Source: Plantactinospora mayteni (GTDB lineage Bacteria > Actinomycetota > Actinomycetes > Mycobacteriales > Micromonosporaceae). Taken from it: DNA of 64,000 bases. Shown here piece after piece: positions 43,903-64,000 of the stretch. Both the position numbers and the translations under genes were made by a program. The stretch is taken from NCBI RefSeq assembly GCF_016862935.1, contig NZ_BONX01000002.1:186001-250000 (forward strand), written 5' to 3'. Numbering within the stretch: the first letter of the stretch is position 1; every line of letters starts with the position of its first letter. Below the pieces are notes generated by a model that ran no database searches, was not told the origin of the DNA, and saw only the letters and a list, made by a program, of their open reading frames with translations.

Positions 43903-43935
43903 TTGCACTCGGTCTGCCGACAGAATACTGTATGC
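43903..43935 (+). promoter_or_regulatory. gcl promoter with palindromic operator ATACTGTAT
   Basis: TTGCAC (43903-43908) and TACTGT (43926-43931) are 17 bp apart. The -10 is embedded in ATACTGTAT (43925-43933), a perfect 4+4 palindrome. GTCTGC (43912-43917) and GCAGAC (43934-43939) form a second, wider inverted repeat around it. The GntR/FCD protein encoded at 46172 is the likely binder. Confidence 0.65.
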
Positions 43936-44070
43936 AGACTTCCTAACTGGTCCTTCCAGGCACCGGGATCCGGTGCCGGTCAGCCGTCGACGGGACGCAA
44001 GACCCACCGCCCCCGTCCCCGGCCCGGCGATTCGCCAATCCACAGGACACCCGACGCCCTGGAGGCTCCC

Positions 44071-45970: not shown

Positions 45971-46096
45971 ACACCGCTTTGCCCAGGAGCTGGCGACTCC
46001 AGGTCTACAGGTCGTGACCGCGATCGATGCCACGTCGTCGGCCGCGACATCCGGTCGATCGGTGCACTTCCCCGTCGCCCGCAGGGCAGCGGACGA

Positions 46097-46124
46097 TTGC
46101 ATCTAGACGACTGTATGCTATAGC
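46097..46124 (+). promoter_or_regulatory. GntR gene promoter with operator half-sites
   Basis: TTGCAT (46097-46102) and TATAGC (46119-46124) are 16 bp apart. Between them is ACTGTATGC (46109-46117 region), one good arm of the ATAC-N-GTAT palindrome with a degenerate left arm, consistent with weak autoregulation. Confidence 0.5.
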
Positions 46125-46171
46125 CAACAATCGGAACGCCCGATCGGGTTCTTCGCAGCCGGAGGTAGTCC

Positions 46172-46933: not shown

Positions 46934-47005
46934 CTCGGTGACAGCAGGACACACCTCAGCGGTTCGACCGCGGTAGCCGGTCGGGTCGCCGCCTCGGTCC
47001 CGACC

Positions 47006-47773: not shown

Positions 47774-47849
47774 CCTCGCAACCTGTGGCTGGCCGGCGAA
47801 AGGCCGACGGATTCCATTGGCGCCGATTCTCTCGTTGCTGGCGTCCGAT

Positions 47850-47996
47850 ATGGACGTTGCGCTGTGGGTGTTGCAGTGGGTTCTCGCCGGCAGCCTCGTG
47901 CTGTCGTTTCTGGCTACGCCGTTCACCGTGCGCCGAGAAGACGTCGACCGCGAGAGAGGTGGGGTGCGATGGGTACGTTGCTGCCCTGGGCGATGA
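47850..47996 (+). CDS. Small membrane protein, possible
   Basis: 48 aa (MDVALWVLQWVLAGSLVLSFLATPF...). One hydrophobic helix, like the first helix of DoxX-like proteins, then a charged tail. It overlaps the next small frame by 28 bp. No clear ribosome site. Either a tiny membrane protein or the start of a broken gene. Confidence 0.3.
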   Translation: MDVALWVLQWVLAGSLVLSFLATPFTVRREDVDRERGGVRWVRCCPGR

Positions 47997-48130
47997 TCGG
48001 CGGCGGTCTGCTCCTCGTCCTGCTCGCCATGGTGGGCCATCGGCACCAGTCCACCGCCGTCAGGGCCCTCCAAGCCGTGACCGGTTTCGCCGGTATCCTG
48101 GCCGGCCTGTTCAGGCTGGTTACTCCCTGA
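47969..48130 (+). CDS. Small membrane protein, possible
   Basis: 53 aa with one strong helix (LPWAMIGGGLLLVLLAMVG) and a second hydrophobic stretch. GAGAGGTGGGG precedes the ATG. Together with the overlapping frame at 47850 it may be a two-component small membrane unit or a frameshifted single gene. Confidence 0.4.
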   Translation: MGTLLPWAMIGGGLLLVLLAMVGHRHQSTAVRALQAVTGFAGILAGLFRLVTP

Positions 48131-48163
48131 CCAAACGCTTGATCGACACTCGGTCGACACGCT

Positions 48164-49525
48164 TCACAGGCGGATGGACTTCTTGTTCATGAACTCCTCG
48201 ATGCCGGCCGGGCCGAGCTCCCTGCCCATCCCGGAGCGCTTGATCCCGCCGAACGGCAGGTCCGCCTGCGACCCACCGGCGCTGTTCAGATACACCATGC
48301 CGGACTCGATCTGCCCGGCAACCCGGCGCAACCGGTGGGGATCGGTGCCCCATACGCTGGCGCCGAGCCCGAACGGCGAGTCGTTCGCGATCGCGACCGC
48401 TTCCTCCTCGGTCTCCGCGCGGAAGACCAGCACGACAGGGCCGAAGATCTCCTCGTAGTAGGCGTCCATCTCGGGGGTCACGTCCGTGAGTACGGTGGCC
48501 TCGAGATAGGCGCCGGGCCGGTCGACACGATGCCCACCGGTACGTAGCGTCGCGCCCTGCCGGACCGCCTTCTCGACCTGACCGGCCACCTCGTCGGCCG
48601 CCGCGGCCGACGCCAGCGGCGGCAACTTCGTGGCGGGATCGCCGGGGTCGCCCGGCACGAAGGTCTCGGCCACATGCTTGGTCAGGCGGTCGACGAACTC
48701 CTCGTAGATGTCGGCGAGCACGATCATCCGCTTCGGCGAGTTGCACGACTGGCCGCAGTTGCGCATCCGGGCAGTCGCGGTGGCCTTCACCGTCTTGTCC
48801 ATGTCGTCGGTGTCGAGCAGGATCAGCGGGTCGGAACCGCCAAGCTCCAGGACGACCCTCTTCAGGTTCTTTCCGGCCTCGGCGGCGACCGAGATGCCCG
48901 CCCGCTCGCTGCCGGTCAGGGAGACTCCCTGGATGCGGGGGTCCGCGAGCATCCGGGGGACCTGCGCGCTGGAGGCGAAGATGTTCACGTACGCGTCCTC
49001 AGGCACCCCGGCGTCGTGCAGTATCCGCTCGATCGCGGCTGCCGACCGGGGGCAGATCGAAGCATGCTTCAGCAGGATCGTGTTGCCGAGGACCAGGTTC
49101 GGCGCCACGAACCTGGCGATCTGGTAGCAGGGGAAGTTCCACGGCATGACGCCGAGCAGCGCTCCGATGGGGTTCTTGGTGATGACGGCCCTACCGCCCC
49201 TGATCTCCAGCGGCTCGTCGGCCAGCAACGCAGGACCGTGGTCGGCGTAGTACCTGAAGATGTCGACGACGACGCCGACCTCACCGCGGCCCTCGTTGAT
49301 CCGCTTGCCCATCTCCAACGTCATCGTCGCCGCCAGCTCGTCGGCGCGCTCGGCGAACAGGTCCGCCGCACGTGACACGATCCTGGCCCGCTCGGCGATA
49401 GGCCGACGCCGCCACGACGAGTACCCGTGGTGGACGCGGTCGATCGCCGCCCGGACCTCTCCGTCGGTCGCGTTCTCGATCTCCTCGATCAGTTCACCCG
49501 TCGCTGGGTCGGTAACTGTGTACAT
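48164..49525 (-). CDS. Aldehyde dehydrogenase, succinate-semialdehyde type
   Basis: 453 aa. ALDH signatures: LELGGSDPLILL (catalytic Glu), MRNCGQSCNSPKRMIV (catalytic Cys of GQ-C), ALLGVMPWNFPCYQIARF and IFGPVVLVFRAETEEEAVAIAND. Length and composition suit the succinate-semialdehyde/aliphatic aldehyde branch (GabD2-like). In this context it could oxidise glyoxylate or tartronate semialdehyde, but that is only inferred from neighbours. Leftward, 319 bp from the oxc stop with a mobA remnant between. Confidence 0.9.
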   Translation of the reverse strand: MYTVTDPATGELIEEIENATDGEVRAAIDRVHHGYSSWRRRPIAERARIVSRAADLFAERADELAATMTLEMGKRINEGRGEVGVVVDIFRYYADHGPALLADEPLEIRGGRAVITKNPIGALLGVMPWNFPCYQIARFVAPNLVLGNTILLKHASICPRSAAAIERILHDAGVPEDAYVNIFASSAQVPRMLADPRIQGVSLTGSERAGISVAAEAGKNLKRVVLELGGSDPLILLDTDDMDKTVKATATARMRNCGQSCNSPKRMIVLADIYEEFVDRLTKHVAETFVPGDPGDPATKLPPLASAAAADEVAGQVEKAVRQGATLRTGGHRVDRPGAYLEATVLTDVTPEMDAYYEEIFGPVVLVFRAETEEEAVAIANDSPFGLGASVWGTDPHRLRRVAGQIESGMVYLNSAGGSQADLPFGGIKRSGMGRELGPAGIEEFMNKKSIRL

Positions 49526-49575
49526 CGGGATCCAAGCCTCCGTTCTCTACCAACGCCGCGCCGGGCGGCGACCCG

Positions 49576-49725
49576 TCAGCCGCCCGGCGGATTCGCACGG
49601 GGAGTCGGCACCCCGGGCGGCAGATCGCCGGGCGGCCCGACCACGATGCGGGGGGACGCGTCGCGTACCACGGCGAGCACGCGGTCGCGCATCGACGGGC
49701 CGCCCACCCACACCACGGGTGTCTC
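49576..49725 (-). pseudogene. Degraded MobA-like fragment
   Basis: On the minus strand the frame reads TPVVWVGGPSMRDRV, LAVVRDASPRIVVGPPGD and LPPGV..PRANPPGG before a stop, which matches the middle of molybdenum cofactor guanylyltransferases (VGGR.MLDRVLAAV..A.PRIVVGP..DLP.GV..REDPPGGGP). The N-terminal LAGG nucleotide-binding segment and the C-terminal half are missing. It lies between the ALDH and oxc genes. MobA matures the cofactor for formate dehydrogenase, so the remnant fits the lost locus to which fdhD also belongs. The rest of the 319-bp gap holds no gene. Confidence 0.6.
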
Positions 49726-49844
49726 GGAACGGCGGCTGGTGTCGCTCAGGATTCGTGAGCCGGCCGAGGCACCCGGGCGAGATGTTCGACGCCCTCCTCA
49801 AGGTTCGTTGACGCACACCGTGGGGTGCGGGGTGGCGCTCGTCC

Positions 49845-51578
49845 TCACCGCTGCACTGTGATGCCCTTGGGGTTGAGGTGGGAGATGTTGCCGCTCTCGG
49901 TTCCGTCGGCGGGGTCGATGACGCAGTCGATGAGCGCGGGCTTGCCCGCCGCGAGGGCCTCGCGCAGGGCGGCGGCGACCTCCACCGGCGTCGTCGCCCG
50001 ATAGCCCCTGCCGCCGAATGCGGCGATCATGAGGTCATGCCGGGCCCTGAGGGCGGTTGGTGCCGGGTCACCGGAGGTTGACGCATCGTCGCCCCGGTAG
50101 ACGCCGCTGTTGTTCAGCACGACCGTGACGACGGGCAGGCCGTAGCGGCAGATCGTCTCTATCTCCATGCCGCTGAACCCGAACGCACTGTCGCCCTCGA
50201 TGGCGACGACCGGGTCTCCGGTCTCAACCGCGGCGGCGATCGCGTACCCCATGCCGATGCCCATCACGCCCCAGGTACCACTGTCCAAGCGGTGTCGCGG
50301 CACCTGCATACCGATCGTGTTGCGCGCCAGGTCCAGCGCGTTCGCGCCCTCGTTGACGACATACGTCCGCGGGTTCTCCCGCAGGACATCGCGGATGGCC
50401 TGGAGAGCGCCCAGGAACTTCATCGGATGTGCCGTTTCGGCGGCCGTGAGGCGCTTGGCCATCTTGCCGACGTTCTCCGCGGAGCGGGCCGAAAGCTCGT
50501 CCCGCCACTGGGCGGGTACCGCGATCTGGCCAGGTCCGGTCCGGTCGATCAGGGCCTGCATCACCGAACCGACGTCACCGACGAGCGGCGCCGCAATGGG
50601 CTGGTTGCTGTCCAACTCGGTACTGGCGATGTCCACCTGGATGAACTTGGCGTCGGAGTTCCACTGCGGTGCGTCGCCATGTCCGAGCAGCCAGTTCAGG
50701 CGCGCACCGACGAGCATCACCACGTCGGCCCGGCGGAGGGCCAGTGATCTGGCACTGGCTACCGACTGCGCGTGGTCGTCGGGCAGCAGGCCCTTCGCCA
50801 TCGACATGGGCAGGTAGGGCACACCGGTAAGCTCGACGAACTGGCGGATCTGATCGTCCGCCTGCGCGTACGCAGCGCCCTTGCCGAGCACGACGAGCGG
50901 GCGCTGGGCGGTCGCGAGCAGTTCGATCGCGCGGTCCAGGGCGGCGGGTTCGGGCACCTGACGCGGTGCCGGGTCGACGACCCGCCACAGTGACGCCGCG
51001 CCCAGATCCGCGTCGATGACCTCGCCGAGGACCGCGGCCGGGATGTCGAGGTAGACCCCTCCCGGTCGTCCGGACACGGCGGTACGGATCGCGCGGGCCA
51101 CACCTCGGCCGATGTCTTCCGCCCGTTGTACGCGGTATGCCGCTTTGGCAAACTGTCGAGCCGCCGCGAGCTGGTCCATCTCCTCGTAGTCGCCCCGCTG
51201 CAAGTCGACGAGGTGCCGCTCGCTGGACCCGGAGATCTGCACCATCGGGAAGCAGTTCACGGTGGCGTTGGCCAGGGCCACCAGCCCGTTGAGGAATCCC
51301 GGAGCGGACACGGTCAGGCAGATTCCCGGCTTCTTCGTCAGGAACCCGGCCGCCGCCGCCGCGTGTCCGGCAGCGCTCTCGTGCCGGAAGCCGATGAAGC
51401 GGATGCCGGACGCCTGCGCCAGGCGGGCCAGGTCGGTGATCGGGATGCCGACGACGCCGTAGATGGCGTCGATCTCGTTGAGCTTGAGCGCGTCGACGAC
51501 CAGATGGATCCCGTCGGTGAGTTTCTGCGCACCTACGAGGCCGCCAGCTTCTGACTCCCGGAGGGAAGCGATGGTCAT
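49845..51578 (-). CDS. oxc: Oxalyl-CoA decarboxylase
   Basis: 577 aa. GIPITDLARLAQASGIRFIGFRHESAAGHAAAAAGFLT contains the ThDP-activating Glu67, and the ThDP motif GDSAFGFSGMEIETICRYGLPVVTVVLNNSGVYRG is complete. Oxc converts oxalyl-CoA to formyl-CoA and CO2 in the cytosol. The match to Oxalobacter/E. coli Oxc extends through HPMKFLGALQAIRDVLRENPRTYVVNEGANALDLARN. GGAGG precedes the ATG. Controlled by the conserved promoter block at 51670-51747. Confidence 0.93.
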   Translation of the reverse strand: MTIASLRESEAGGLVGAQKLTDGIHLVVDALKLNEIDAIYGVVGIPITDLARLAQASGIRFIGFRHESAAGHAAAAAGFLTKKPGICLTVSAPGFLNGLVALANATVNCFPMVQISGSSERHLVDLQRGDYEEMDQLAAARQFAKAAYRVQRAEDIGRGVARAIRTAVSGRPGGVYLDIPAAVLGEVIDADLGAASLWRVVDPAPRQVPEPAALDRAIELLATAQRPLVVLGKGAAYAQADDQIRQFVELTGVPYLPMSMAKGLLPDDHAQSVASARSLALRRADVVMLVGARLNWLLGHGDAPQWNSDAKFIQVDIASTELDSNQPIAAPLVGDVGSVMQALIDRTGPGQIAVPAQWRDELSARSAENVGKMAKRLTAAETAHPMKFLGALQAIRDVLRENPRTYVVNEGANALDLARNTIGMQVPRHRLDSGTWGVMGIGMGYAIAAAVETGDPVVAIEGDSAFGFSGMEIETICRYGLPVVTVVLNNSGVYRGDDASTSGDPAPTALRARHDLMIAAFGGRGYRATTPVEVAAALREALAAGKPALIDCVIDPADGTESGNISHLNPKGITVQR

Positions 51579-51669
51579 GATCAGAGTCCTCCATCATTCG
51601 GCGACGGCGGGGCACTGCGCGCAAGCGCGCACGGGAAGCGACTTCCTTCCCCCTCGCTGTCCCTAGAAG
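51579..51669 (-). promoter_or_regulatory. oxc 5' leader
   Basis: The presumed transcribed leader holds two short hairpins: TGCGCGC/GCGCGCA (51616-51631) and GGAAG-CGA-CTTCC (51634-51646), then the ribosome site. No riboswitch class is recognised. Confidence 0.35.
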
Positions 51670-51747
51670 TGCATACCGTATGGGGTAGGCAATAATCGTG
51701 GACCATGTAACAGCGGGGTGTCTAGGGGTTGGCAGGGACGTTTTCCG
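51670..51747 (-). promoter_or_regulatory. Conserved 78-bp promoter/operator block, oxc copy
   Basis: Starts with GCATACCGTATGG (51671-51683), the regulon palindrome. Compared with 59491-59567 upstream of frc there are about six mismatches and one 1-bp gap in 77 positions, far above the surrounding DNA. On the minus strand TACGGT inside the palindrome would be the -10 of oxc. The same conserved order and orientation before frc shows that this is one duplicated regulatory element. Confidence 0.75.
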
Positions 51748-52234
51748 GGCAGGCCGGCCCGTACCAGCGCCGAGCTGGTGGTCGTGGACCGGGTCAGCGA
51801 CGCGGTGGCCTTGGTCACTGGATCGTTTTTTGTATACCGAAGGCGGTATCCTGGAACCCGTCGAACAAGAACCTGTCGCCGGACAGGACGAGCACGAGGG
51901 TTTGTGGTGGCGCGGCACCGGGGTAGGTCCACACAGGAGACGCCGGCGTACCACCGTTCACACCATGGTCCGGGCCGCGAGATCTACGGCCCCGCACGGC
52001 CACCGCGGGCGACCCCCGCCGGTCAGCCGGCGACCGACATAGCTCCGGCCGCCACGCGACGAGGCGTGCCGGCGGAAGATCCGGCGACCCGGGGTGTGCC
52101 CGGCCCCACCAGGCACATCCCGGGTGTCCTGCCGGACCACCGTCCCGGACGGACCTCGTGTCGTCCGGTCCGGTGCGCACGGTCCCGGGAAGCGTCGTTT
52201 CCCGGGAAGCCCGACAAGCAGGAGTGATGCTGTC
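51748..52234 (+). promoter_or_regulatory. Leader region of the small protein gene at 52235
   Basis: TTGGTC (51811-51816) and TATACC (51833-51838) form a weak promoter; the -10 overlaps ATACC-N6-GGTAT (51834-51849), a variant of the regulon palindrome. CCCGGGAA/TTCCCGGG (52184-52191, 52199-52206) makes a hairpin shortly before the ribosome site. The region has no other convincing gene. Confidence 0.4.
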
Positions 52235-52444
52235 ATGACCACCTGGCGAACGTTCTCACGTTCCCTGACCCGACTCTCCGACCGGCTGGCGCTGCCGACC
52301 GGGTTCCCGGCCGACGGCCGCCCCCTCGGGCTCGGCCTGGCGGCCGCGCTGGAGAACCAGCGTCGGGCCGCCCGGCCGAGCGACGAGGAGATCGAGCGCT
52401 TCCTCCGTGGCTCCGCCCCGGACGAAGACCTGATCAAGGTCTGA
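52235..52444 (+). CDS. Small protein of unknown function
   Basis: 69 aa, mostly helical with a charged C-terminal half (ENQRRAARPSDEEIERFLRG). GGAG lies 10 bp before the ATG. No membrane segment or known domain. It is flanked by oxc-type control DNA and converges with terC: its stop and that of terC both lie inside the hairpin 52438-52458. Function unknown. Confidence 0.55.
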   Translation: MTTWRTFSRSLTRLSDRLALPTGFPADGRPLGLGLAAALENQRRAARPSDEEIERFLRGSAPDEDLIKV

Positions 52445-52458
52445 CCACCGGTCAGACC
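52438..52458. terminator. Hairpin containing both convergent stop codons
   Basis: GGTCTGACC (52438-52446) and GGTCAGACC (52450-52458) are perfect complements with a 3-nt loop. The stop codon of the small gene (52442-52444) is in one arm and that of terC (52452-52454) in the other. Confidence 0.65.
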
Positions 52459-53477
52459 GCGTCCCGGTCCGCCGTCACGGTGTCGTGGGTACCGGGGGTC
52501 TCGGCTCCCACTCCCTCCGTGGCGGCGGACGGCCGTTGCGACTCGTCCCGTCGGGACTTCGCCAGGCTCGCCACGGTGGTGACCAGCAGCGTACCGACGA
52601 TGACCCCGAGCGAGACGGTGATCGGCACCGACGGCGCCCAGGAGACCCCGTCGTGGTGCGCCGCCTCCAGCACGAGCTTGACGCCGATGAAGGCCAGGAT
52701 GAACGCCAGGCCCTTGCTGAGGTAGACCAGCCGGTCGAGCAGGCCACCGAGCAGGAAGTAGAGCTGCCGCAGGCCCATCAGCGCGAACGTGTTCGCGGTG
52801 AAGACCAGGTACGGCTCCTGCGTCAGTCCGAAGATCGCCGGGATCGAGTCGAGCGCGAACAGCAGGTCGGTGGTGCCGATGGCGATCATGACGATCAACA
52901 TCGGGGTCACCATCCTCCGCCCCTCCACCCGGACGAACACCGACGCACCCCGGTACGACTCCGTGGTCGGCAGGATCCGCTTCGCCGTACGGAGGGCGAA
53001 GTTCTCGGAGAACTCGTCCTCCTGCTGCGGACCGACCAACTTGATCGCGGTGTAGACCAGGAACGCGCCGAACAGGTAGAAGAGCCAGTCGAACCGGGCG
53101 ACCGCCTGGGCGCCCGCCGCGATGAACATGCCCCGCATCAACAGCGCCAGCACGATGCCGATCAGCAGCACCTTCTGCCGGTACCGGACCGGCACCGCGA
53201 ACCGGCTCATGATGATGATGAAGACGAACAGGTTGTCGACGCTGAGCGAGTACTCGGTGAGCCAGCCGGCGAAGAACTGGCCGCCGTAGCTGGCCCCGGC
53301 CGTCGCCATCAGGAGGAACCCGAAGGCGACCGCGGCCAGTACGTAGAAGCTCACCCAGGCCACGCACTCCCGGAAGGCCGGCTCGCGCGGATTGCGGGCG
53401 ACCAGGTAGAAGTCGAAGGCGATCATCACGATGAAGCCGACGATCGTCACGGCCCATACCCAGACCGGCAGGTTCAT
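52452..53477 (-). CDS. TerC family membrane protein
   Basis: 341 aa with about seven to nine helices. EYSLSVDNLFVFIIIMSRF and TTDLLFALDSIPAIFGL are the conserved Asp-bearing TerC motifs; family members have been linked to manganese export and metalation of exported proteins. The C-terminal 40 residues are a polar tail. ATG overlaps the stop of the membrane protein gene upstream (ATGA), so it is the last gene of the frc-acyl-CoA ligase-Nramp-like unit. Confidence 0.92.
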   Translation of the reverse strand: MNLPVWVWAVTIVGFIVMIAFDFYLVARNPREPAFRECVAWVSFYVLAAVAFGFLLMATAGASYGGQFFAGWLTEYSLSVDNLFVFIIIMSRFAVPVRYRQKVLLIGIVLALLMRGMFIAAGAQAVARFDWLFYLFGAFLVYTAIKLVGPQQEDEFSENFALRTAKRILPTTESYRGASVFVRVEGRRMVTPMLIVMIAIGTTDLLFALDSIPAIFGLTQEPYLVFTANTFALMGLRQLYFLLGGLLDRLVYLSKGLAFILAFIGVKLVLEAAHHDGVSWAPSVPITVSLGVIVGTLLVTTVASLAKSRRDESQRPSAATEGVGAETPGTHDTVTADRDAV

Positions 53478-54058
53478 GACTCTCCCTTGGATCGCAACAG
53501 GGTCGGTCGACCGCCACCGGTTCCCCGAGCGGCGGCCCGGGCCCGCCTACGGCTCTCCCTGGCCGTCCACTGCGCCTCGGCGTGTTGCAGGTAGAAGGCG
53601 TACAGCCGGTCGGCGGCCGGGTTGCGGTGCCGGATCCGGCGCAGCCAGCCCGGCGCGATCCGCTCGTGCAGCCAACTGAACCCGATCGCGAAGCCGAGGC
53701 TGACGATCGCCTGGTAGGCGAGGAAGCCGAGCAGGTCCGGCGGCAGCGCCGGCCGGCCGACGACCATCAGGCCGACCAGCATCTCGTGGACCACCCGGGC
53801 GACCGGGAACCCGAGGAACCAGTAGAGCGCCGCCGGGGCGAAGACGCCCGGCGACACGACGCCGGAGCCGAGCAGCAGCCCGAAGCCGCCGCCGAGCAGT
53901 ACCAGCGGCAGACCGAGCCCCAGGCCGGTGGCCAGGGCCCAGCCGATCGGTTGGCCGGCGAGCAGGGCGAGCCCGCCGGCCGCCACCCCGGCGGTCGCCC
54001 CGATGCCGGCTCCCGGCAGGGCGAGCTCACCGAGGTGGCGTACTTTGTTGCCGGTCAC
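53474..54058 (-). CDS. Membrane protein of unknown function
   Basis: 194 aa, four hydrophobic segments in residues 12-135 rich in Gly/Leu/Ala, then a basic soluble tail (RNPAADRLYAFYLQHAEAQWTARESRRRARAAARG). No family recognised. GTG start. Between the Nramp-like and TerC genes in one operon, so it may be an accessory of one of them. Confidence 0.6.
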   Translation of the reverse strand: MTGNKVRHLGELALPGAGIGATAGVAAGGLALLAGQPIGWALATGLGLGLPLVLLGGGFGLLLGSGVVSPGVFAPAALYWFLGFPVARVVHEMLVGLMVVGRPALPPDLLGFLAYQAIVSLGFAIGFSWLHERIAPGWLRRIRHRNPAADRLYAFYLQHAEAQWTARESRRRARAAARGTGGGRPTLLRSKGES

Positions 54059-54104
54059 GGCGTTTCCTCACTCCGCTTGGTCATGACAACTCCTCCCGGC
54101 CACC

Positions 54105-55613
54105 TCAGTCGATGACCACGCCGAACCGGATCAGGCTGTAGGCCAGCATGCCGAGGTAGAACACCGCGCCGAACCCGATCACCACGTTCTGCACGATGCC
54201 CGGCCGGATCGGCTTGGGCAGCATCCGGTTGTTCACCAACAGCAGCACGACGCAGTACGCGCCCATCGCGAAGGTGGAGAGGAAGGCCAGTACGTCGAGG
54301 ATCGCGCCGGGGCCGTCCGCCGGACCGAAGTTCAGGATCAGGATGCCGAAGGTGATGACACCCCAGAGGAACCCGGCGTACAGCTTCGACATGCTGAACC
54401 GCTTGGCCCCGGGTACGAAGTGGTAGGTCATGTCCGCCTGGCCCCGGGAGAACGAGTCGAAGAGGCCGAGCGTGGCGTTCAGACCGATCAGCGCGATGAA
54501 GCCGAGGAAGACCCCGTGCAGCACCGGCGCCCCGGCCGAGGCGAAGGCGTCGGCCATCGCGGTCAGCGCCACCTCCCGCTCACCGTCCCGGATCACGTCC
54601 CCGACGTTCGGGTTCTCCCGGACGGCGGTCTGGGCCAGCACCGTGAACGAGACGGTGACCAGCATCGTGACGCCCCAGAAGAGCAGCAGGGCGTCGAAGG
54701 TGACCCAGCGCCGCCAGCCCTTCCACTTCTTCATCTCCTCCGGGCTGTCGGTGTCGAACATGAAGCCGCGGGACGGCATCTCCTCCTGCTCACCCGCGTG
54801 CCGCAGGCCACGGATCTTCGGGATGTGCGCGCCCATACCGGCACCGGAGTCCCGCAGGTGCAGCGTGTACCACATCTGCTGCATGCCGGACGGGCCGGCG
54901 AAGGCGATCGCACCGACGATCACCGGGAACCAGGCCGCCGACATCGCCTCGCTGGGCAGGTAGCCGAAGTGGAACATCCCGGCGAGGGTCGAGGTGACGT
55001 CGCTCCACTGGCCGACGATCGAGGCGACCACCGAGGTACCGACCACCAGTACGCCGATCAGGAGACCGAGCAGGCTCTCCAGCAGCGGATAGATCACCTT
55101 GGCCAGGCTGAACACCACGCCGACGAGGATCAGCCCGACACAGGCGCTGACCGTCCAGGGTATCCCGGTCACCTCCTCGAAGGCGGCGGCGCCGGTGGAG
55201 AGGTGTCCGGGCCAGATATAGACCAGGATCGCCACGCTGAAGAAGAACCACATCAGTGGTTTGAAGACCCGGGCGGCGCCGAAGAAGATGCTCTCCCCGG
55301 TGGCCATCGCGTACCGGGCCATCTCCAGCATCACGAAGGCTTGCAGGGTGACACCGATCAGGAAGAGCCACCGGATCTCCGGCCCGAAGATCAGGACCAG
55401 TCGGGGCCACATGTACGACTCGCCCATGCCCACGCCGAGCGCGACGAGGAAGACGGTCGGGCCGAGCAGGTGGATCGAGGGCGGAGCCTTGGGTAGTTCC
55501 CGGATCGGCATCGGTTCGAGCCGTCCGGCCCGCCACACGCGCTCCTCGGTGGGCGGGGCCGGCGGGGCGGTACCTGTCGGCTGAGTGGGATGGGGGCTGT
55601 TCGAAGCGTCCAC
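54105..55613 (-). CDS. Nramp-fold transporter with non-canonical metal site
   Basis: 502 aa with about 11-12 helices. The start of the fold reads GPTVFLVALGVGMGESYMWPRLVL, the place where Nramp metal transporters have DPGN in helix 1, and FAGPSGMQQMWYTLHLRD where they have MPH in helix 6. Asp and Asn of the first motif are absent, so Mn/Fe transport is doubtful. GTG start preceded by AGGAGG. It lies 153 bp downstream of the acyl-CoA ligase in the frc operon; the substrate could be a metal-oxalate or an organic ion (inference). Confidence 0.75.
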   Translation of the reverse strand: MDASNSPHPTQPTGTAPPAPPTEERVWRAGRLEPMPIRELPKAPPSIHLLGPTVFLVALGVGMGESYMWPRLVLIFGPEIRWLFLIGVTLQAFVMLEMARYAMATGESIFFGAARVFKPLMWFFFSVAILVYIWPGHLSTGAAAFEEVTGIPWTVSACVGLILVGVVFSLAKVIYPLLESLLGLLIGVLVVGTSVVASIVGQWSDVTSTLAGMFHFGYLPSEAMSAAWFPVIVGAIAFAGPSGMQQMWYTLHLRDSGAGMGAHIPKIRGLRHAGEQEEMPSRGFMFDTDSPEEMKKWKGWRRWVTFDALLLFWGVTMLVTVSFTVLAQTAVRENPNVGDVIRDGEREVALTAMADAFASAGAPVLHGVFLGFIALIGLNATLGLFDSFSRGQADMTYHFVPGAKRFSMSKLYAGFLWGVITFGILILNFGPADGPGAILDVLAFLSTFAMGAYCVVLLLVNNRMLPKPIRPGIVQNVVIGFGAVFYLGMLAYSLIRFGVVID

Positions 55614-55766
55614 GCTGGACCTCCTGGGGGACTGTGACGTCGTACGGAGCCGGAGGACGGGCCGGTTCCGACGCTTGTGTCCGTTGACCCTTGGCCGCGG
55701 AGCGGGTCGCCGTGTCGCTTAGTGGCCCCTCCCACCGCCTGGTCGGGTGGAACTGTCGTGCATTGC

Positions 55767-57932
55767 TCAGCGGCCGTCCGGTTGGCCGCCGAGCAGACCG
55801 GCGGAACGTGCCCACCGGTACTTGGCGCCGAGCACCGCGACCGGCTTCTCCGTGGTGTACGGATAGGCGACGATCCCGTGCCGGTACAGGTGCTCGCTGG
55901 CCTCCTCGACCTCGACGTCCCCGGCGAGCGAGGCGACCACCGGCTTGTGGATGCCCTTGGCCCGGAACTCCTCGACCACGTCGACGACCAGCTCGGCGAA
56001 GACCATCGGCGGGGTGACGATGGTGTGCCAGTAGCCGAGGATCAGCGAGTGGATGCGGGGGTCGGACAGGCCCAGGGCAATGGTGTTGCGGTAGGTGGAC
56101 GGCGGCTCGCCGCCGGTGATGTCCACCGGGTTGCCGGCCGCGCCGAATGGCGGGATGAACTTGCGGAACGCCTCGTCCAGGTCCGGCGGGATCTCCATCA
56201 GGGTGAGCTTGTTGTCCACGCAGGCGTCGGAGAGCAGCACTCCGGAGCCGCCGGCGCCGGTGATGATGACGACGTTCTCGCCCTGCGGGGTGGGCAGCAG
56301 CGGAATGCCCCGGGCGTATTCCAGCAGGTCGTTGAGGCCGGGGGCCCGGATCACGCCGTTGGTGCGCAGGATGTCGTCGTAGACCTTGTCGTTGCCGGCC
56401 AGCGCCCCGGTGTGCGAGCTGGCCGCCTTGGCGCCCTGGTCGGTGCGGCCGGCCTTGAGCACCACCACCGGCTTGGTCTTCGAGACCCGGCGGGCGGTGT
56501 CGGCGAACGACCGGCCGTCCTTGAGGTCTTCCAGGTGCATCGCGATGAGCTGGGTGTTCGGGTCGCTCTCGAAGAAGGTCAGCAGGTCGTCCTCGTCGAT
56601 GTCGGCCTTGTTGCCGACGCCGACGATCGCGGAGACGCCCATCCGGGCGGCCCGGCTGAAGCCGAGGATCGCCATCCCGATGCCGCCGCTCTGCGAGGAG
56701 AGCGCCACCCCGCCCTTGACGTCGTACGGGGTGCAGAAGGTCGCCGACAGGTTCTCCGGGGTGTAGTAGTAGCCGTAGATGTTCGGCCCGAGGATGCGTA
56801 CGCCGTGCTCGCGGGCGACCTTGACGACCTCGGCCTGCAACTCGTGGTTGCCGGTCTCGCCGAAACCGGACGGGATCAGGATCGCCCCGGCGACTCCCTT
56901 GGCCCCGACCTCGGCCAGCGCCTGCGGGACGAACTTGGCCGGGATGGCGAAGACCGCCACGTCGACCGGGCCGGGCACGTCAGTGATGCTCCGGAACGCC
57001 TTGCGGTCCAGGATCTCGCTGGCCTTCGGGTTGATCGGGTAGATCTCGCCCTGGTAGCCGCCGTTGACCAGGTTCTTCATCACCGAGTTGCCGATCTTGC
57101 CGACCTCGGCCGAGGCACCGATCACGGCGACCGAGGCGGGCCGCATGATCCGGTTCATGCTGGCCAGGATCTCCTCGTCGGTGAACCGCTCCGGCTGCAC
57201 GGCGGCGGCCGGGTCGACCAGGATCCGCACGTCGACCGCGGTCGCGCCGGCGGCGGTGGCCAGCACCGGGTTGAGGTCCACCTCGGCCAGTTCCGGGAAG
57301 TCGGTGACCAGGTTCGACAGCCGGACGACCAGGTCGGCCAGCACCTCGCGGTTGGCCGGCTCGGCGCCGCGTACGCCGCGCAGGATCTCGGCCGCGGCGA
57401 TCCCGTCGATCATCGACAGCGCGGTCTCGGTGTCGGTCGGGGCGAGCCGGAACGTGACGTCCTTGAGCACCTCGACGAGTACGCCGCCGAGGCCGAACGC
57501 GACCACCTTGCCGAAGGTCGGGTCGGTGACCGTACCGACGATGACCTCGTGACCGGAGTCGAGCTGCTGCTGCACCTGCACCCCGACGATCGTGGCATCC
57601 GCCTTGTACGCCCGCGCGTTGGCGAGAATGGTGTCGTACCCGGAAGCCACCTCCTCGGCGCTGCGCAGCCCGACCAGTACGCCACCGGCCTCGGTCTTGT
57701 GCAGGATGTCCGGCGAGACGATCTTCAGTACCACCGGCAGGCCGATCCGCTCGGCCAGCGCCACCGCCTCGTCGGCGCTGCCGGCCAGGCCCTCACCCGG
57801 GGTGGCGATCCCGTACGCCTCGACCACCAGCCGCCCCTCCGGAGCGGTCAGCGAACTCCGGCCCTCCGCAGCGGCCCGGTCCAGCACCCGCCGCACGGCC
57901 TCGCGGTCGTAGCTGCTGTCGTTGGATGGCAT
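55767..57932 (-). CDS. ADP-forming acyl-CoA ligase, fused beta-alpha type
   Basis: 721 aa. Residues 1-220: ATP-grasp domain (VVLKIVSPDILHKTEAGGVLVGL). About 235-330: CoA-binding domain (SVAVIGASAEVGKIGNSVMKNLVNGGYQG). About 390-690: succinyl-CoA ligase-like domains with the phosphohistidine motif ASSHTGALAGNDKVYDD. In a typical acetate-CoA ligase of this class the order is reversed. It links acyl-CoA hydrolysis to ADP phosphorylation. The ATG at 57932 is chosen over upstream codons because it gives the family start. Its place beside frc suggests formyl-, oxalyl- or acetyl-CoA substrates; not provable here. Confidence 0.85.
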   Translation of the reverse strand: MPSNDSSYDREAVRRVLDRAAAEGRSSLTAPEGRLVVEAYGIATPGEGLAGSADEAVALAERIGLPVVLKIVSPDILHKTEAGGVLVGLRSAEEVASGYDTILANARAYKADATIVGVQVQQQLDSGHEVIVGTVTDPTFGKVVAFGLGGVLVEVLKDVTFRLAPTDTETALSMIDGIAAAEILRGVRGAEPANREVLADLVVRLSNLVTDFPELAEVDLNPVLATAAGATAVDVRILVDPAAAVQPERFTDEEILASMNRIMRPASVAVIGASAEVGKIGNSVMKNLVNGGYQGEIYPINPKASEILDRKAFRSITDVPGPVDVAVFAIPAKFVPQALAEVGAKGVAGAILIPSGFGETGNHELQAEVVKVAREHGVRILGPNIYGYYYTPENLSATFCTPYDVKGGVALSSQSGGIGMAILGFSRAARMGVSAIVGVGNKADIDEDDLLTFFESDPNTQLIAMHLEDLKDGRSFADTARRVSKTKPVVVLKAGRTDQGAKAASSHTGALAGNDKVYDDILRTNGVIRAPGLNDLLEYARGIPLLPTPQGENVVIITGAGGSGVLLSDACVDNKLTLMEIPPDLDEAFRKFIPPFGAAGNPVDITGGEPPSTYRNTIALGLSDPRIHSLILGYWHTIVTPPMVFAELVVDVVEEFRAKGIHKPVVASLAGDVEVEEASEHLYRHGIVAYPYTTEKPVAVLGAKYRWARSAGLLGGQPDGR

Positions 57933-58045
57933 TACGTCGTCTCCTTCAGGAACGCCGGTCCCGGTGGGGCCGGGCCGGGGAACGTGCTGGTTCTGATCGG
58001 ACGGGACCGGTGGTGGCGGTGCGGGTCGAGGCGGCGCTTGGCCGC

Positions 58046-59275
58046 TCAGACGGCGCCGGCGGCGCGCAGCTCGCCGACCTGCTCCTCGGAGTAGCCCAGC
58101 TCGCCGAGGACCTGGCCGGTGTGCTCGCCGAGCAGCGGCGAGCGCTCCACCTCGACGTGCGAGTCGGAGAGCTTGATCGGGTTGCCGACGGTCTTGTACG
58201 CGCCCCGGTCCGGGTGCTCGACCTCGACCACCGAGCCGAGCTGGGCGAGGGTCTCGTCCTCGATCAGCTCCCTGGTCGACATGATCGGCCCGCACGGGAT
58301 GTTGTACGCGTTGAGCTTCTCCATGACCTCCTGCTTGGAGTGCCGCTCGGTCCACTCCTCGATCAGCGCGAACGCCTTGTCGAGTTTGTTCAGGCGCACC
58401 TGCGGCGTGCTCCAGGCGGGGTCGTCGGCCAGTTCGGGCTTGCCGATCAGCTCGCAGATCGGCTTCCAGCCCACCGGCTGGATGATCACGTAGATGTAGT
58501 CGTTCGGCCCGCCCGGGGCGCACCGCACCGCCCAGCCGGGCTGGCCGCCGCCGGAGGCGTTGCCGGAGCGCGGCACCTCGTCGCCGAAGCTCTCGTTCGG
58601 GTACTCCCCCAGCGGTCCGTACGCCAGCCGCTGCTGGTCGCGCAGCTTGACCCGGCAGAGGTTGAGTACCGCGTCCTGCATGGCGACCTGCACCCGCTGG
58701 CCCCGCCCGGTGTGGGTCCGCTGGTACAGCGCGGCCAGGATGCCGGCGACCAGGTGGATGCCGGTACCGGAGTCGCCGATCTGCGCTCCGGTGGCGATCG
58801 GCGGCCCGTCCTCGAAGCCGGTGGTGCTCATCGCCCCGCCCATCGCCTGGGCGATCACCTCGTACGCCTTGAAGTTGGCGTAGCGGCCGGGGCCGAAGCC
58901 CTTGATGGAGGCGTAGACCAGGCCGGGGTTGATCTCCTGGAGCCGCTCCCAGGGGAAGCCGAACCGCTCCACCACGCCGGGGCCGAAGTTCTCCACCAGG
59001 ATGTCCACTCCGGACACCAGTCGGGTGAAGACCTCCTTGCCCTGCTCGTGCTTCATGTTCAGGGTGATGCTGCGCTTGTTGCCGTTCAGCATCGTGAAGT
59101 AGAGGCTGTCCACGTTCGGGATGTCGCGCAGTTGGGTGCGGGTGATGTCACCCTGGCCCGGTGCCTCCAACTTGATCACGTCCGCGCCCAGCCACGCCAG
59201 GATCTGCGTGGACGAGGGGCCGGACTGTACGTGCGTCATGTCGAGGACCCGTACGCCCTCCAGTGCCTTACCCAT
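58046..59275 (-). CDS. frc: Formyl-CoA:oxalate CoA-transferase
   Basis: 409 aa, a class III CoA-transferase. The catalytic Asp168 lies in [13 protein letters not shown], the glycine loop is [10 protein letters not shown] (residues 241-250), and the start [30 protein letters not shown] is that of Frc/YfdW. It moves CoA from formyl-CoA (or succinyl-CoA) to oxalate, providing oxalyl-CoA for Oxc. AGGAGG 6 bp before the ATG fixes the start. First gene of the leftward operon. Confidence 0.95.
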
Positions 59276-59330
59276 GCCAACCTCCTGTGCGCGCCCTGCC
59301 GTGCACTGCCGGCCATCGAGCTGATGCCTC

Positions 59331-59456
59331 GGTTGCCGTTGCCCTTGCCTTGCCATTGCCGTTGCTTCGTTGCCGTCGTCGTTGCTTCGTTGCCGTCACG
59401 GTCGTCGTTTCCGTCGTCGTTTCCGTCGCGGTTGCGATTGCCGTCGCGGTTGCCGT
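59331..59456 (-). repeat. Degenerate TTGCCG/GTCGTC tandem repeat in the frc leader
   Basis: About 125 bp of imperfect 6-bp and 12-bp repeats. It includes GTTGCTTCGTTGCCGTC twice (59361-59377, 59381-59397) and GTCGTCGTTTCC twice (59401-59412, 59413-59424). It lies between the frc start and the conserved promoter block, so it would be transcribed in the frc leader. Frames through it give Asn/Asp/Gly- or Val/Ala-rich peptides that I treat as noncoding. Confidence 0.7.
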
Positions 59457-59490
59457 GGACCGGTCGCCCGGTCCACCCCTTCCTCGGGAT

Positions 59491-59567
59491 TGCATACCGT
59501 ATGGGGTAGGCAATATCGTGGCGCATGTAACAGCGGAGTGTCTAGGGGGTAGCGGGGACGTTTTCCG
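59491..59567 (-). promoter_or_regulatory. Conserved 78-bp promoter/operator block, frc copy
   Basis: Begins with GCATACCGTATGG (59492-59504) and matches the oxc block at 51670-51747 with about six substitutions and one missing base. It is the only strong control sequence between the divergent frc and sucC-like genes, so it could act in both directions. Confidence 0.75.
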
Positions 59568-59768
59568 CCGAAGCCAGCGAGGCCCAGGCGGTACGACCCC
59601 CGCTCGTCGGCCCGGGCCAGAGTCCGGTTTCCGCTGCCCACACCCCTCCCGGTCCGATCTCCACGTCCGGTCCGATCCGCACTCCCCCGTCTCTCCGCCC
59701 GCCCGTCCGGGACAGCCCACGCATCGGGTGGAGGCAACCCACCGAAGGTCGAGAAGAAGGGAGGCCCG

Positions 59769-60947
59769 GTGGACCTGTTGGAGCACCAGGCACAGGAACT
59801 CTTCGCCAAGCACGGCGTACCGGTCAGCCGCAACCGCGTCGCCAGCACCCCCGACGAGGCGCACGCCGCCGCCGCCGAGATCGGTGGACGCGTCGTGGTC
59901 AAGGCCCAGGTCAAGACCGGCGGCCGGGGCAAGGCCGGCGGGGTCAAACTGGCCGACGGACCGGAGGCGGCCCGGGAGGTCGCCGCCCGGATCCTCGGCA
60001 TGGACATCAAGGGCCACACCGTGCACCGGGTACTGGTCACCGAGGCGAGCGACATCGCCGACGAGTACTACGTGTCGTTCCTGCTCGACCGGTCCAACCG
60101 GTCGTTCCTGGCCCTCGTCTCCGGGCAGGGCGGCGTCGAGATCGAGCAGGTGGCGGCCGAGAACCCGGAGGCGCTGGCCCGAACCTGGGTCGACCCGGCC
60201 GGCGGGTTCGACCTGGACGCCGCCCGCCGGCTGGCCGCCGCCGCCGGCCTGCCCGACGACGTACGCGAGGACGTGGCCCGGGTACTCGTCCGGCTCTGGA
60301 ACGTGTTCCGGTCCGAGGACGCCACCCTGGTCGAGATCAACCCGCTGGCCCGGCTGGCCGACGGCAGCGTACGCGCCCTGGACGGCAAGGTGACCCTGGA
60401 CGACAACGCCCGGTTCCGCCAGCCCGGGCACCCGCAGTACGCCGACGTCAGCGCCACCGACCCGCTGGAGGTCAGGGCCGCCGAGAAGAACCTCAACTAC
60501 GTCAAGCTGGACGGCTCGGTCGGAGTGATCGGAAACGGCGCCGGTCTGGTGATGAGCACCCTCGACGTGGTCGCCTACGCCGGCGAGCGGTACGGCGGCG
60601 TCAAGCCGGCCAACTTCCTCGACATCGGCGGCGGCGCCTCGGCCGAGGTGATGGCGAACGGCCTGGAGATCATCCTCGGCGACCCCGACGTACGCAGCGT
60701 CTTCGTCAACGTCTTCGGCGGGATCACCGCCTGCGACGCGGTCGCCGACGGCATCGTCGCGGCGGTCGCGCTGCTCACCGACCGGGGCGAGACGATCACC
60801 AAACCGCTGGTCGTCCGGCTGGACGGCAACAACGCCGCGCAGGGGCGGCAGATCCTCACCGAGGCGGCGCTGCCCGGCGTACGGCTGGTGGACACGATGG
60901 ACGGGGCGGCGCGGCTCGCCGCCGAACTCGCCGGCAAGGGGGCGTGA
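59769..60947 (+). CDS. sucC: Succinyl-CoA ligase beta subunit type protein
   Basis: 392 aa. ATP-grasp beta subunit: [46 protein letters not shown] and [21 protein letters not shown]. The usual enzyme makes succinyl-CoA, or related malyl-CoA. The GTG has GGGAGG 4 bp upstream. The divergence from frc over the conserved promoter block suggests co-regulation with oxalate use rather than a housekeeping role, but this cannot be settled by sequence. Confidence 0.9.
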
Positions 60948-60952
60948 CAGCC

Positions 60953-61828
60953 ATGGCAATCTTCCTCACCGAGAAGAGCAGGGTGCTGGTCCAGGGCATC
61001 ACCGGCACCGAGGGCACCCGGCACACCCGCCGGATGGTCGCCGCCGGCACCAACATCGTCGCCGGGGTCACCCCGGGCAAGGGCGGCCGGAACGTCGACG
61101 GCATCCCGGTCTTCGACACCTGCGCCGACGCGGTCAGGGCGACCGGGGCGGACGTGACGGTGGTCTTCGTACCGCCCCGGTTCGCCAAGGCGGCCGTACT
61201 GGAGGCGGTCGACGCCGGACTCGGCCTGGCCGTGGTACTCACCGAGGGCATCCCGGTGCACGACACCGCCGAGTTCTGGGCGTACGCCCGGGGCACCGGC
61301 AACCGGACCCGGATCATCGGGCCGAACTGCCCCGGACTGATCAGTCCCGGTCAGTCCAACGCCGGCATCATCCCGGCCGACATCACCAAGCGGGGCCGGA
61401 TCGGCCTGGTCAGCAAGTCCGGCACCCTGACCTACCAGATGATGTACGAGCTGCGCGACTTCGGCTTCTCCACCTGCGTCGGGATCGGCGGTGACCCGAT
61501 CGTCGGCACCACGCACATCGACTGCCTCCAGGCGTTCGAGAACGATCCCGAGACCGAGGCGATCGTGATGATCGGCGAGATCGGCGGGGACGCGGAGGAG
61601 CGGGCGGCGGCGTACATCGCCGAGCACGTCAGCAAGCCGGTGGTCGGCTACGTCGCCGGCTTCACCGCACCGGAGGGGAAGACGATGGGGCACGCCGGGG
61701 CGATCGTCTCCGGCTCGTCCGGTACCGCACTGGCCAAGCAGGAGGCCCTGGAGGCGGTCGGGGTCCGGGTCGGCCGGACGCCGTCCGAGACCGCCGCGCT
61801 GATGCGCGAGACGCTGCTGGCGCGCTGA
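60953..61828 (+). CDS. sucD: Succinyl-CoA ligase alpha subunit type protein
   Basis: 291 aa. Rossmann CoA-binding start [39 protein letters not shown], and the phosphohistidine His247 in [16 protein letters not shown]. It pairs with the beta subunit gene 5 bp upstream; the ATG at 60953 is used rather than the GTG at 60944 that overlaps the sucC stop. Two further degenerate copies of its 3' end follow (61835-61884). Confidence 0.93.
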
Positions 61829-61884
61829 TCCGGGGAGACGTTCCCGGCGCGCCGATCCGCGAGGCGTTACTGATGCGCTGATCG
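61808..61884 (+). repeat. Three tandem copies of the sucD 3' end
   Basis: GAGACGCTGCTGGCGCGCTG (61808-61827, last codons and stop of sucD) is followed by similar 24-bp units at 61835-61858 and 61861-61884 (GAGACGTTCCCGGCGCGCCG, GAGGCGTTACTGATGCGCTG). Period 26-27 bp. Products would be RETLLAR, GETFPAR, REALLMR. Confidence 0.6.
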
Positions 61885-61960
61885 TCGACGGACACGCCGG
61901 GTGCCGGGTCGGGCGGACGCGACCGGTGCCCGGCGGCCGTCGTACCCGAAGGTCGGCGCC

Positions 61961-61994
61961 GGTCCGGGCGGAGTCCGACACCTCCGCCCGGACC
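61961..61994. terminator. Bidirectional terminator between sucD and fdhD
   Basis: GGTCCGGGCGGAG (61961-61973) and CTCCGCCCGGACC (61982-61994) are perfectly complementary with an 8-nt loop, between convergent genes. The rest of the region 61885-62123 shows no gene. Confidence 0.75.
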
Positions 61995-62123
61995 TCTCGC
62001 GCCGCTGGGCCCGACCGGGGCCACCCCACGTCGACGCGCATCCCCAGCAGACCGCCCGGTGGTCCGGACGGCGGGCACGACGAACCCGCCGCGGCCGGAC
62101 GGCGGCGGCGAGTTGGTCGGGGG

Positions 62124-62972
62124 TCAGGCCGAGAGGCTGGTCGGGGTGCGCTGGGTCAGCCGGTGCGCTCCGGCGTAGACGTTCATCGAGCTGCCCCGGA
62201 GGAAGCCGACCAGGGTGAGCCCGGCGTCGTCGGCCAGGTCGGCGGCGAGCGAGGACGGCGCGGAGACCGCGGCCAGCACCGGGATGCCGGCCATCACCGC
62301 CTTCTGCACCAGTTCGAACGAGGCCCGCCCGCTGACCATCAGCACGGTGCCGCGCAGCGGTGCCCGCCCGTTGCGCAGCGCCCAGCCGACGACCTTGTCC
62401 ACCGCGTTGTGCCGGCCGACGTCCTCACGCAGGCAGTGCAGCCGCCCGTCGGCGGAGAAGAGCGCCGCCGCGTGCAGCCCGCCGGTGCGGTCGAAGACCC
62501 GCTGCGCGGCCCGCAGGCTGTCCGGCAGTGTGCTGAGCACGCCGGGGTCGAGCCGCACCGGATCGTCCCGCACCGACCAGGCCGCGACGGTACGCACCGC
62601 GTCCAGGCTGGCCTTGCCGCAGAGTCCGCAGGACGAGGTGGTGTAGAAGTTGCGCTCCAGTGACGGGTCCGGTGGCGCCACTCCGGCCGCCAGCACCACG
62701 TCGACCACGTTGTAGGTGTTGACCCCGTCGGCGGTGGCACCCGCGCAGTAGCGGATGCCGGCGATCTCACCGGCGGCGCGTACCACGCCCTCGCTGACCA
62801 GGAAGCCGGCCGCCAGGTCGAAGTCGTCGCCCGGGGTCCGCATGGTCACCACCAGGGACCGCCCGTTCACCCTGATCTCCAGCGGCTCCTCGGCCGCCAG
62901 CGTGTCCACCGGCTCGCTGACCACACCGTCAACGATCCGGACCAGCCGACGTCGACTCGTCACCCGTCCCAT
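62124..62972 (-). CDS. fdhD: Formate dehydrogenase accessory sulfurtransferase FdhD
   Basis: 282 aa. The conserved pair CxxC is in [14 protein letters not shown]; other FdhD motifs are [35 protein letters not shown] and [33 protein letters not shown]. FdhD passes sulfur to the molybdenum cofactor of formate dehydrogenase. No formate dehydrogenase gene is in the window, but its presence beside an OFA-type carrier and oxalate genes suggests that formate from formyl-CoA is oxidised. Start ATG 62972 after GGTGGTGGGTGG. Confidence 0.95.
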
Positions 62973-63096
62973 TCCACCCACCACCGATCCTCGCTCGGTC
63001 TCACCCCGTCCGGTCGGCCTCTCCTCCACGGTAGGCCGACCCGACCCCGTCCGCACCAGGTCGGCACGCCGGTTCCGCCCGGGTCGACACATACTT

Positions 63097-64000
63097 CTAG
63101 AGCCGGTCGACGCCGAGCGGCGACGGCAGCCGGACCACCGCCAGGCCGGGCTGGCGCATCCAGCGGGTCAGCGCCGCGCCGAACAGCCCCAGCGAACCGG
63201 CCACCAGGAACGGCACCACCGAGTCCGGAGTGGTCACCACCAGCCCGGCGAGCACGATGCCGAGCAGTCCGCCGACCGCCTTGCCGGTGTAGACGATGCC
63301 GTAGTTCGGCACCGTGGCGGCGTCACCGAACCAGTCCCGGACCAGGCTGACCAGCAGCGAGTAGCCGGCTCCGGTACCCGCGCCGGCCAGCGCGGCGAAT
63401 CCCACCACGGCGGCCGGGTGGTTGTCGTTGGCCGCCGCCGCGAGCAGGCCGAACTGGGCGATCCCGCCGACCAGCAGGGAGAGGCCGAGGGTGCCGCGCC
63501 GGCCGATCCGGTCGGAGAGCGAACTGGTCACCGCCCGGCCGATCCCGTTCGACGCGGCCAGCGCGCCGATCCCGGCCACCAGGGTCAGCGCCGGCAACCC
63601 CTGGGTGTACGCGGCACCGGCCAGGTACGCGATGTCGAACAGCGCCATCGTCGCGGTGAGTACCACCACCACGAACATCAACGGCAGCATGCCGCTGCGC
63701 AGTGCCGCGCGGGGCGGGTAGGGCCGGGCGGCGGGACGGTTGTGCGGGATGCTGCGGTTGAGCCGCCGGTCGACCGCCCAGCGCTGCGGGTCGATGTGCG
63801 CCGGCCACCAGTTGCGGGGCGGCTTTCGCATCAGCGTCCCGCAGGCGGCCACCACCGCGAAGACGACGACGGCGGTCCCGGTCAGCACGGCCGCCCGGTT
63901 GCCGGCGTCCAGGCCGTAGCCGGCGAGGACGACGAACGGGATCGACCCGTAGCCGAACGCGGCGCTGACCACCGCCACCCGACCGGCGATCCGCTCCGGG
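63097..64000 (-). CDS. MFS carrier, oxalate/formate antiporter (OFA) type, 5' end outside
   Basis: The frame is open to the right edge, leaving 301 residues, about 7-8 of 12 helices. PPRNWWP in the central loop matches the OFA pattern PPxGWxP, and the later [26 protein letters not shown] is the OFA-type helix 10/11 loop seen in YhjX and OxlT relatives. OFA carriers exchange oxalate with formate or other monocarboxylates. In this context it would bring in oxalate. Its leftward direction and short gap place it in an operon with fdhD downstream. Confidence 0.8.

Follow-up and report, generated by a model that had tools for sequence, protein, structure and literature searches.

A probable promoter block duplicated at the oxalate genes oxc and frc of Plantactinospora mayteni and a candidate GntR/FCD regulator of oxalate use in Micromonosporaceae

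A block repeated upstream of oxc and frc

The window analysed here is a stretch of 64,000 nucleotides from Plantactinospora mayteni (Micromonosporaceae; contig NZ_BONX01000002.1, positions 186,001 to 250,000) and carries two genes of oxalate use, both on the minus strand. The first, oxc, codes for oxalyl-coenzyme A (CoA) decarboxylase (49845-51578; TIGR03254, 981.6 bits against a cut-off of 739.4) and the second, frc, for formyl-CoA transferase (58046-59275, start read from the sequence; TIGR03253, 657.1 bits, cut-off 504.2). Oxc and the operon that begins with frc are about 8 kb apart, and a nearly identical sequence block lies upstream of each. Global alignment and BLAST gave 91% identity over 78 bases between the copy at 51670-51747 (copy a, oxc) and that at 59491-59567 (copy b, frc operon), with a single 1-base gap; the match is continuous and the 40-base flanks, judged by eye, have no comparable similarity. 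Besides 51670-51747 itself, a BLAST search of the own genome matched 59491-59567 (91%, E 9.5e-24) and no third copy. The profile R1, described below, places the two copies at 51667-51747 (87 bits) and 59487-59567 (91.1 bits).

The initial annotation of this region had described a near-identical duplicated block of 78 bp with a 1-bp gap and differing flanks, standing in equal orientation relative to the leftward gene, and both points were confirmed. The two copies are on the minus strand, copy a directed at oxc (ATG at 51578) and copy b at frc (ATG likely near 59275). The leader of frc is lengthened by a low-complexity repeat of the GTTGCCGTCGTC type at 59330-59455.

Putative promoter and operator elements

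Thirty-four copies of the block, collected by the DNA, R1 and locus searches presented below, were analysed; 15 of them had served to build the profile and none was dropped. Read in the direction of the gene, all 34 contain T[AG]GACA-N17/18-NA[AC][CG]AT, followed after 5-7 bases by TACnnnATACGGTAT, from which we infer a sigma-70-type promoter with an operator at its start site. The putative -35 hexamer is TAGACA in both P. mayteni copies (51719-51724 in copy a and 59539-59544 in copy b, minus strand) and the putative -10 hexamer is CACGAT (51695-51700 and 59515-59520, minus strand), with a spacer of 18 bases in each. Transcription would be expected to start on the TAC, so that the operator would span roughly -5 to +19. 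The weighted information, calculated over 17.4 effective copies, is 1.86 bits for the -35, 1.76 for the -10, 1.78 for the operator and 1.40 for the stretch between -10 and operator, and is lower in the spacer (0.99 bits), in the 30 bases upstream (0.45) and downstream (0.38). The spacing between -35 and -10 is either 17 or 18 bases and that between -10 and operator 5, 6 or 7 (the 5 in G030), so that promoter elements and operator behave as separate modules. Copy a of G124, matched by the profile only from model position 35, still shows TGGACA at 17 bases. Sigma-70-type (HrdB-like) actinobacterial promoters provide the consensus with which the block can be compared. It resembles them in its T[AG]GACA, in its spacer of 17-18 bases and in the conserved second A and sixth T of the -10, and differs from them in that the -10 starts with C instead of T in most copies, because of which the promoter looks weak by consensus.

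The operator of copy a (51670-51692, minus strand) has the form TTGCCTAC-N8-GTATGCA and that of copy b (59489-59514, minus strand) is an imperfect dyad, ATTGCCTACCCCATACGGTATGCAAT. The inner palindrome ATACGGTAT lies at 51673-51681 in the former and at 59494-59502 in the latter. Three sub-motifs had been singled out in the initial annotation and all are present, but they do not correspond to separate binding sites of three proteins: the palindrome forms the core of the operator, ATGTAACAGCGG falls between the -35 and the -10, and GACGTTTTCC, an element further upstream, is conserved in only part of the copies. The proposal that the block at oxc and frc is a composite regulatory element is supported, except for the separate activator site and the two-way promoter suggested with it. 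As regards the former, the upstream GGAAAACGT part is degraded or absent in the four oxc copies of genus g30; the two-way promoter is discussed below.

The operator core TACNGTATGCA has six exact matches in the 9.84-Mb genome (one for the reversed control), five of which fall within 33 kb (C2:228,729-261,970; P 2.6e-12). When the two blocks are left aside, three of the four remaining cores are inside these 33 kb (P 1.5e-7). The five clustered cores sit by a panE-like gene, gcl, oxc, frc and a formate dehydrogenase operon. The core upstream of the panE/apbA-like gene (42823-43824) is at 42729-42739 on the minus strand and that upstream of gcl (44188-45912) at 43926-43936 on the plus strand, while the formate dehydrogenase operon lies just outside the window, its gamma and alpha subunits scoring over their cut-offs and a NuoF-like subunit below. 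These three sites carry the core without the promoter block. Core sites with one mismatch are found at hydroxypyruvate isomerase-like and MoeA-like genes, both under the model cut-offs. In 14 relatives whose panE-like gene was fetched (L123-L136), the exact core stands upstream of it in ten and a one-mismatch form in four.

A second geometry was found with the pattern TTGYMTAC-N8-GTAT, which matches the genome exactly three times, in both blocks and at 51830-51849 (reversed control, one match). Two dyads are therefore combined in the block, the inner being the ATAC-N-GTAT palindrome and the outer having the N8 spacing, and the right arm is common to both. The frc operator of Streptomyces hainanensis forms a perfect palindrome, TGCATAC-G-GTATGCA (L104:57-71), and a second site precedes the panE-like gene of this species; the next frame is, by eye, formate dehydrogenase-like.

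Distribution, linked regulator and neighbouring genes

A first DNA search covered 61 genomes, the own genome and 60 relatives, nine of which matched, the own genome and a short match in G056 included. The G056 match (36 bases, E 9e-4) was excluded, and 15 of the 16 hits were used to build profile R1, which was then searched in 300 genomes of the family. The genome sets of the family-wide searches for the block, frc, oxc and the GntR gene share their handles and were treated as one draw. The R1 search missed copy a of G124, found in the fetched locus (E 0.0014), and the copy-a counts are therefore lower bounds.

The block is present in 18 of the 300 genomes, distributed over six genera of the family, and never in more than two copies per genome. 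Frc scores over its cut-off in exactly these 18 genomes, and in each of them the frc match lies downstream of the block on the same strand, at 218 bases in the window's genome and at 30-125 bases in the other 17. Oxc is over its cut-off in ten of the 300 genomes, all of them block genomes, and according to the coordinates a second block precedes oxc on its strand in all ten. In six other block genomes, the second copy precedes a different thiamine pyrophosphate (TPP) enzyme that occupies the place of oxc, and in G030 and G153 only the frc copy of the block was found.

Beyond the family, the window's own genome was the sole match in a class-wide draw of 394 genomes, searched with strict filters by which weak matches may be lost. 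The exact promoter and operator pattern was also searched in 84,980 species genomes, a search that may omit records near the window's own, and gave 17 matches in 16 stretches from ten records: Plantactinospora endophytica, Micromonospora sp. HM5-17, three Actinoplanes, one Paractinoplanes, Catenuloplanes japonicus, Phytohabitans flavus, Streptomyces hainanensis and a Pseudonocardiales metagenome-assembled genome (MAG). Eight of these records are already among the 18 block genomes, only S. hainanensis and the Pseudonocardiales MAG being new. Nine of the 17 matches precede frc, five oxc and two the substitute TPP enzyme; the remaining one is on a stretch (L108) that stops short of frc, which was found there by the family frc search.

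The candidate binder of the operator is a GntR/FCD protein encoded at 46172-46933 on the plus strand, with an N-terminal GntR winged helix (PF00392, 73 bits, cut-off 27) and a C-terminal FCD ligand domain (PF07729, 91.7 bits, cut-off 24.3). It belongs to no named NCBIfam equivalog, as none of the 23 listed models reaches its cut-off (best phnR_burk, 108.4 bits against 271.5). At E <=1e-50, its gene is found in 19 of the 300 family genomes, namely all 18 block genomes (74-100% identity) and G027, that is, in one of the 282 genomes without the block, and this co-occurrence supports the GntR/FCD gene as the likely regulator, as had been suggested initially. A looser search of six genomes without the block found relatives of at most 38% identity or none in G002, G007, G013, G024 and G035; G002, which lacks a close homolog, is of the same genus as the window's genome. 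Outside the family, homologs occur in both new genomes (59% in S. hainanensis and 73% in the Pseudonocardiales MAG).

The GntR and FCD domains are common to the regulators of the FadR subfamily, such as GlcC, LldR, PdhR and GlcR of Paracoccus denitrificans, the last of which belongs to glycolate genes (PMC11323563). The regulons of these proteins also resemble the proposed one in their connection with small-acid metabolism, their palindromic operators and an extra half-site beside the palindrome; such half-sites, at 7-12 bases from the centre, accompany many GntR sites (PMC4494728). The proposed regulon differs from those of GlcC, LldR, PdhR and GlcR in that it concerns oxalate, formate and glyoxylate and in that two whole promoters are paralogous. 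Among the matches listed in a literature search, no title or abstract opening indicated a study of such an oxalate-locus regulator.

Behind frc, the minus strand carries an ADP-forming acyl-CoA ligase-like gene (55767-57960, start approximate; under the cut-off of every named model), an Nramp-type transporter (54105-55613; NF037982 over its cut-off), a gene for a protein of 194 amino acids without a family over cut-off, and a gene for a TerC-family membrane protein (52452-53477; PF03741). The last three (52452-55613) follow the frc operon in ten of the 12 loci L057-L068, and they may perhaps serve metal oxalate uptake or metal supply.

Divergent from oxc is a small conserved open reading frame (ORF) of 69 amino acids (52235-52444, plus strand). 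It is faced by a second conserved element, TTGGTCAC...TTTTTTGTATAC-N8-GTATCCTGG (51803-51860, plus strand), about 85 bases beyond the oxc block and recognisable in 14 aligned genomes, which contains the operator-like N8 dyad at 51830-51849. A terminator-like hairpin with a T-run (51803-51826, plus strand) lies between the oxc block and the operator of the small ORF, and its sequence is conserved even in the g30 genomes that have lost the upstream part of the oxc block. The leader of the small ORF (52066-52235, plus strand) is long and conserved and contains two stable hairpins in nine aligned genomes, the spacer being shorter and the first hairpin absent in G225 and G184; it has no Rfam match. 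Its fold has 51 pairs, seven of which are changed on both sides, with little covariation (term +0.88), and the structure is not provable from the fold because the leader sequence is too conserved. A known RNA element was rejected for the block region, as Rfam gave no element at gathering threshold in 46000-64000 and none at E up to 1 in 51600-52500.

A candidate oxalate regulon and its alternatives

The observed duplication and conservation of the block, the order of its elements, its association with particular genes and the co-occurrence of the regulator are very probably best explained by an oxalate regulon that is under GntR control and whose promoter has been duplicated, in which the start sites, the binding, the sign of control and the ligand are deduced from sequence. 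Each block would represent a whole regulated promoter, with a -35, a spacer of 17-18 bases, a -10 and then an operator over the expected start. The linked GntR/FCD protein would sit on this operator, most likely as a repressor, and would depart or change its state upon binding an oxalate-derived acid or CoA ester. Because the same operator core is found at the panE-like, gcl and formate dehydrogenase genes, a single regulator may link the activation and decarboxylation of oxalate with the oxidation of formate and the assimilation of glyoxylate. Duplication of the promoter inside the locus would have made oxc and the frc operon respond alike.

Oxalate use via Frc and Oxc with a PanE2-type oxalyl-CoA/glyoxylate branch occurs in Methylobacterium extorquens. 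There as here, frc, oxc, a panE-like reductase and formate dehydrogenase go together; unlike there, the genes of the present locus have a common operator core and a GntR gene, and the role of the panE-like gene is putative. The system is ordinary in kind and clear in detail.

Several observations weigh against this interpretation. Both the hexamers and the core pattern were selected with the alignment already in view, a strict sigma-70 consensus scan found no promoter in either block region, and the -10 CACGAT lacks the customary first T. The sixth exact core (C3:154,936; L122:4937-4947) is outside the locus and at no pathway gene; it lies upstream of a helix-turn-helix protein, near an IS1182-like transposase fragment. 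The FadR-subfamily operator consensus, TKGT-N2/3-ACMA (PMC4494728), is fitted only partly: by eye, CGGT-AT-GCAA in copy b agrees at six of eight letters and copy a at five of eight, and the sites consist of ATAC-N-GTAT with TTGC/GCAA arms, with no clean TKGT-N2/3-ACMA. The sequence CGGT-AT-ACAA at 51830-51839 (minus strand) agrees with this consensus at seven of eight letters, also by eye. Finally, G027 (L137) has a GntR homolog of 58% identity and neither block nor frc, the co-occurrence was computed for the GntR/FCD gene alone, and the genomes are related, so that the counts are not independent and the Fisher values are inflated.

The partial fit to the FadR-type consensus also favours an alternative in which the operator is read by another regulator or acts as an activator site, the GntR gene being linked only as a member of the locus's glyoxylate branch. 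Both gcl and the panE-like gene do travel with the locus, and co-occurrence alone does not single out GntR. We nevertheless regard this alternative as unlikely, since the GntR gene accompanies the block in all 18 genomes of the family and also in S. hainanensis and the Pseudonocardiales MAG, operator cores stand at several pathway genes, and the operator of the block is located downstream of the -10, which is the usual position for a repressor.

Still less probable is a promoter working in both directions, from which the gene on the other side of the block, sucCD or the small ORF, would be transcribed as well, as had been considered at first. SucC begins about 200 bases from the frc copy in the opposite direction, and the Pseudonocardiales MAG as well as ten of the 12 loci L057-L068 have this arrangement, but in G030 and G153 it is some 15 kb away and has its own operator-like sites, and the small ORF at the oxc copies has its own conserved element. 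A conserved -35/-10 pair is visible in one direction only, none being seen on the opposite strand by eye rather than by computation. The two-way promoter was rejected on the varying position of sucC and the separate element of the small ORF. A dispersed repeat or a recent neutral duplication without regulatory role, to which two near-identical copies in one genome might point, has a negligible probability: the block was not found at many unrelated genes in related genomes, occurring at most twice per genome (twice in its own, once or twice in 18 of 300 family genomes of six genera) and standing before frc and before oxc or the enzyme in its place, and in one of 394 genomes of the class.

If the GntR-controlled regulon is accepted, the promoter may also be informative about the enzyme that replaces oxc. 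In G012, G016, G077, G096, G118 and G124, the oxc slot is occupied by a TPP enzyme 28-30% identical to oxc (for example at L064:4190-5803, minus strand, and L059:11058-12647, plus strand). The G016 protein scores 223.3 bits with TIGR03254, the OXC equivalog, and does not reach the cut-off of 739.4; its best models are the acetolactate synthase PRK05858 (495.9 bits, cut-off 587) and 2-hydroxyacyl-CoA lyase (352.7 bits, cut-off 600), and the G012 protein has similar scores. The nearest solved relatives, searched for the G016 protein only, are 2-hydroxyacyl-CoA lyases, followed by chains named oxalyl-CoA decarboxylase. Because frc and the promoter are kept, the substitute is predicted to decarboxylate oxalyl-CoA and would be a candidate non-orthologous oxalyl-CoA decarboxylase.

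The relationship between the promoter copies was judged from mean identities of 80-base blocks only. Across genera, the mean identity is 0.82 among frc copies, 0.69 among oxc-slot copies and 0.74 between the two kinds. The oxc-slot copy of genus g11 is nearest to frc copies (0.90 to that of g1, 0.88 to its own and 0.87 to that of g30) and is less like the oxc-slot copies of g1 (0.80), g30 (0.72) and g54 (0.72); the extra T found in the oxc-slot copies of g1, g30 and g54 is absent from it and likewise from that of g7. The oxc-slot copy of g1 is 0.82 identical to its own frc copy and 0.73 to the oxc-slot copy of g30. The pattern in g11 fits an oxc-slot promoter overwritten by an frc-type copy, and slower change or shared selection may also account for it. 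A wider proposal, in which the promoter marks a slot of the pathway, the substitute TPP enzyme is a second oxalyl-CoA decarboxylase, the g11 promoter was overwritten, and the N1 and N8 dyads reflect two binding modes of one regulator, is tentative and falls somewhat short of an even chance. If it is true, regulatory DNA copied within a locus keeps two operons in step.

Used as a functional tag, the conserved promoter leads to the prediction of an alternative oxalyl-CoA decarboxylase, a protein that scores best with an acetolactate synthase family model, and brings in a transporter and the 69-amino-acid ORF as well. Soil actinobacteria that feed on oxalate connect the oxalate of plants and fungi with soil carbonate, and for Micromonosporaceae the present locus supplies a defined operator, a candidate for its regulator and a regulon predicted to serve the use of oxalate.

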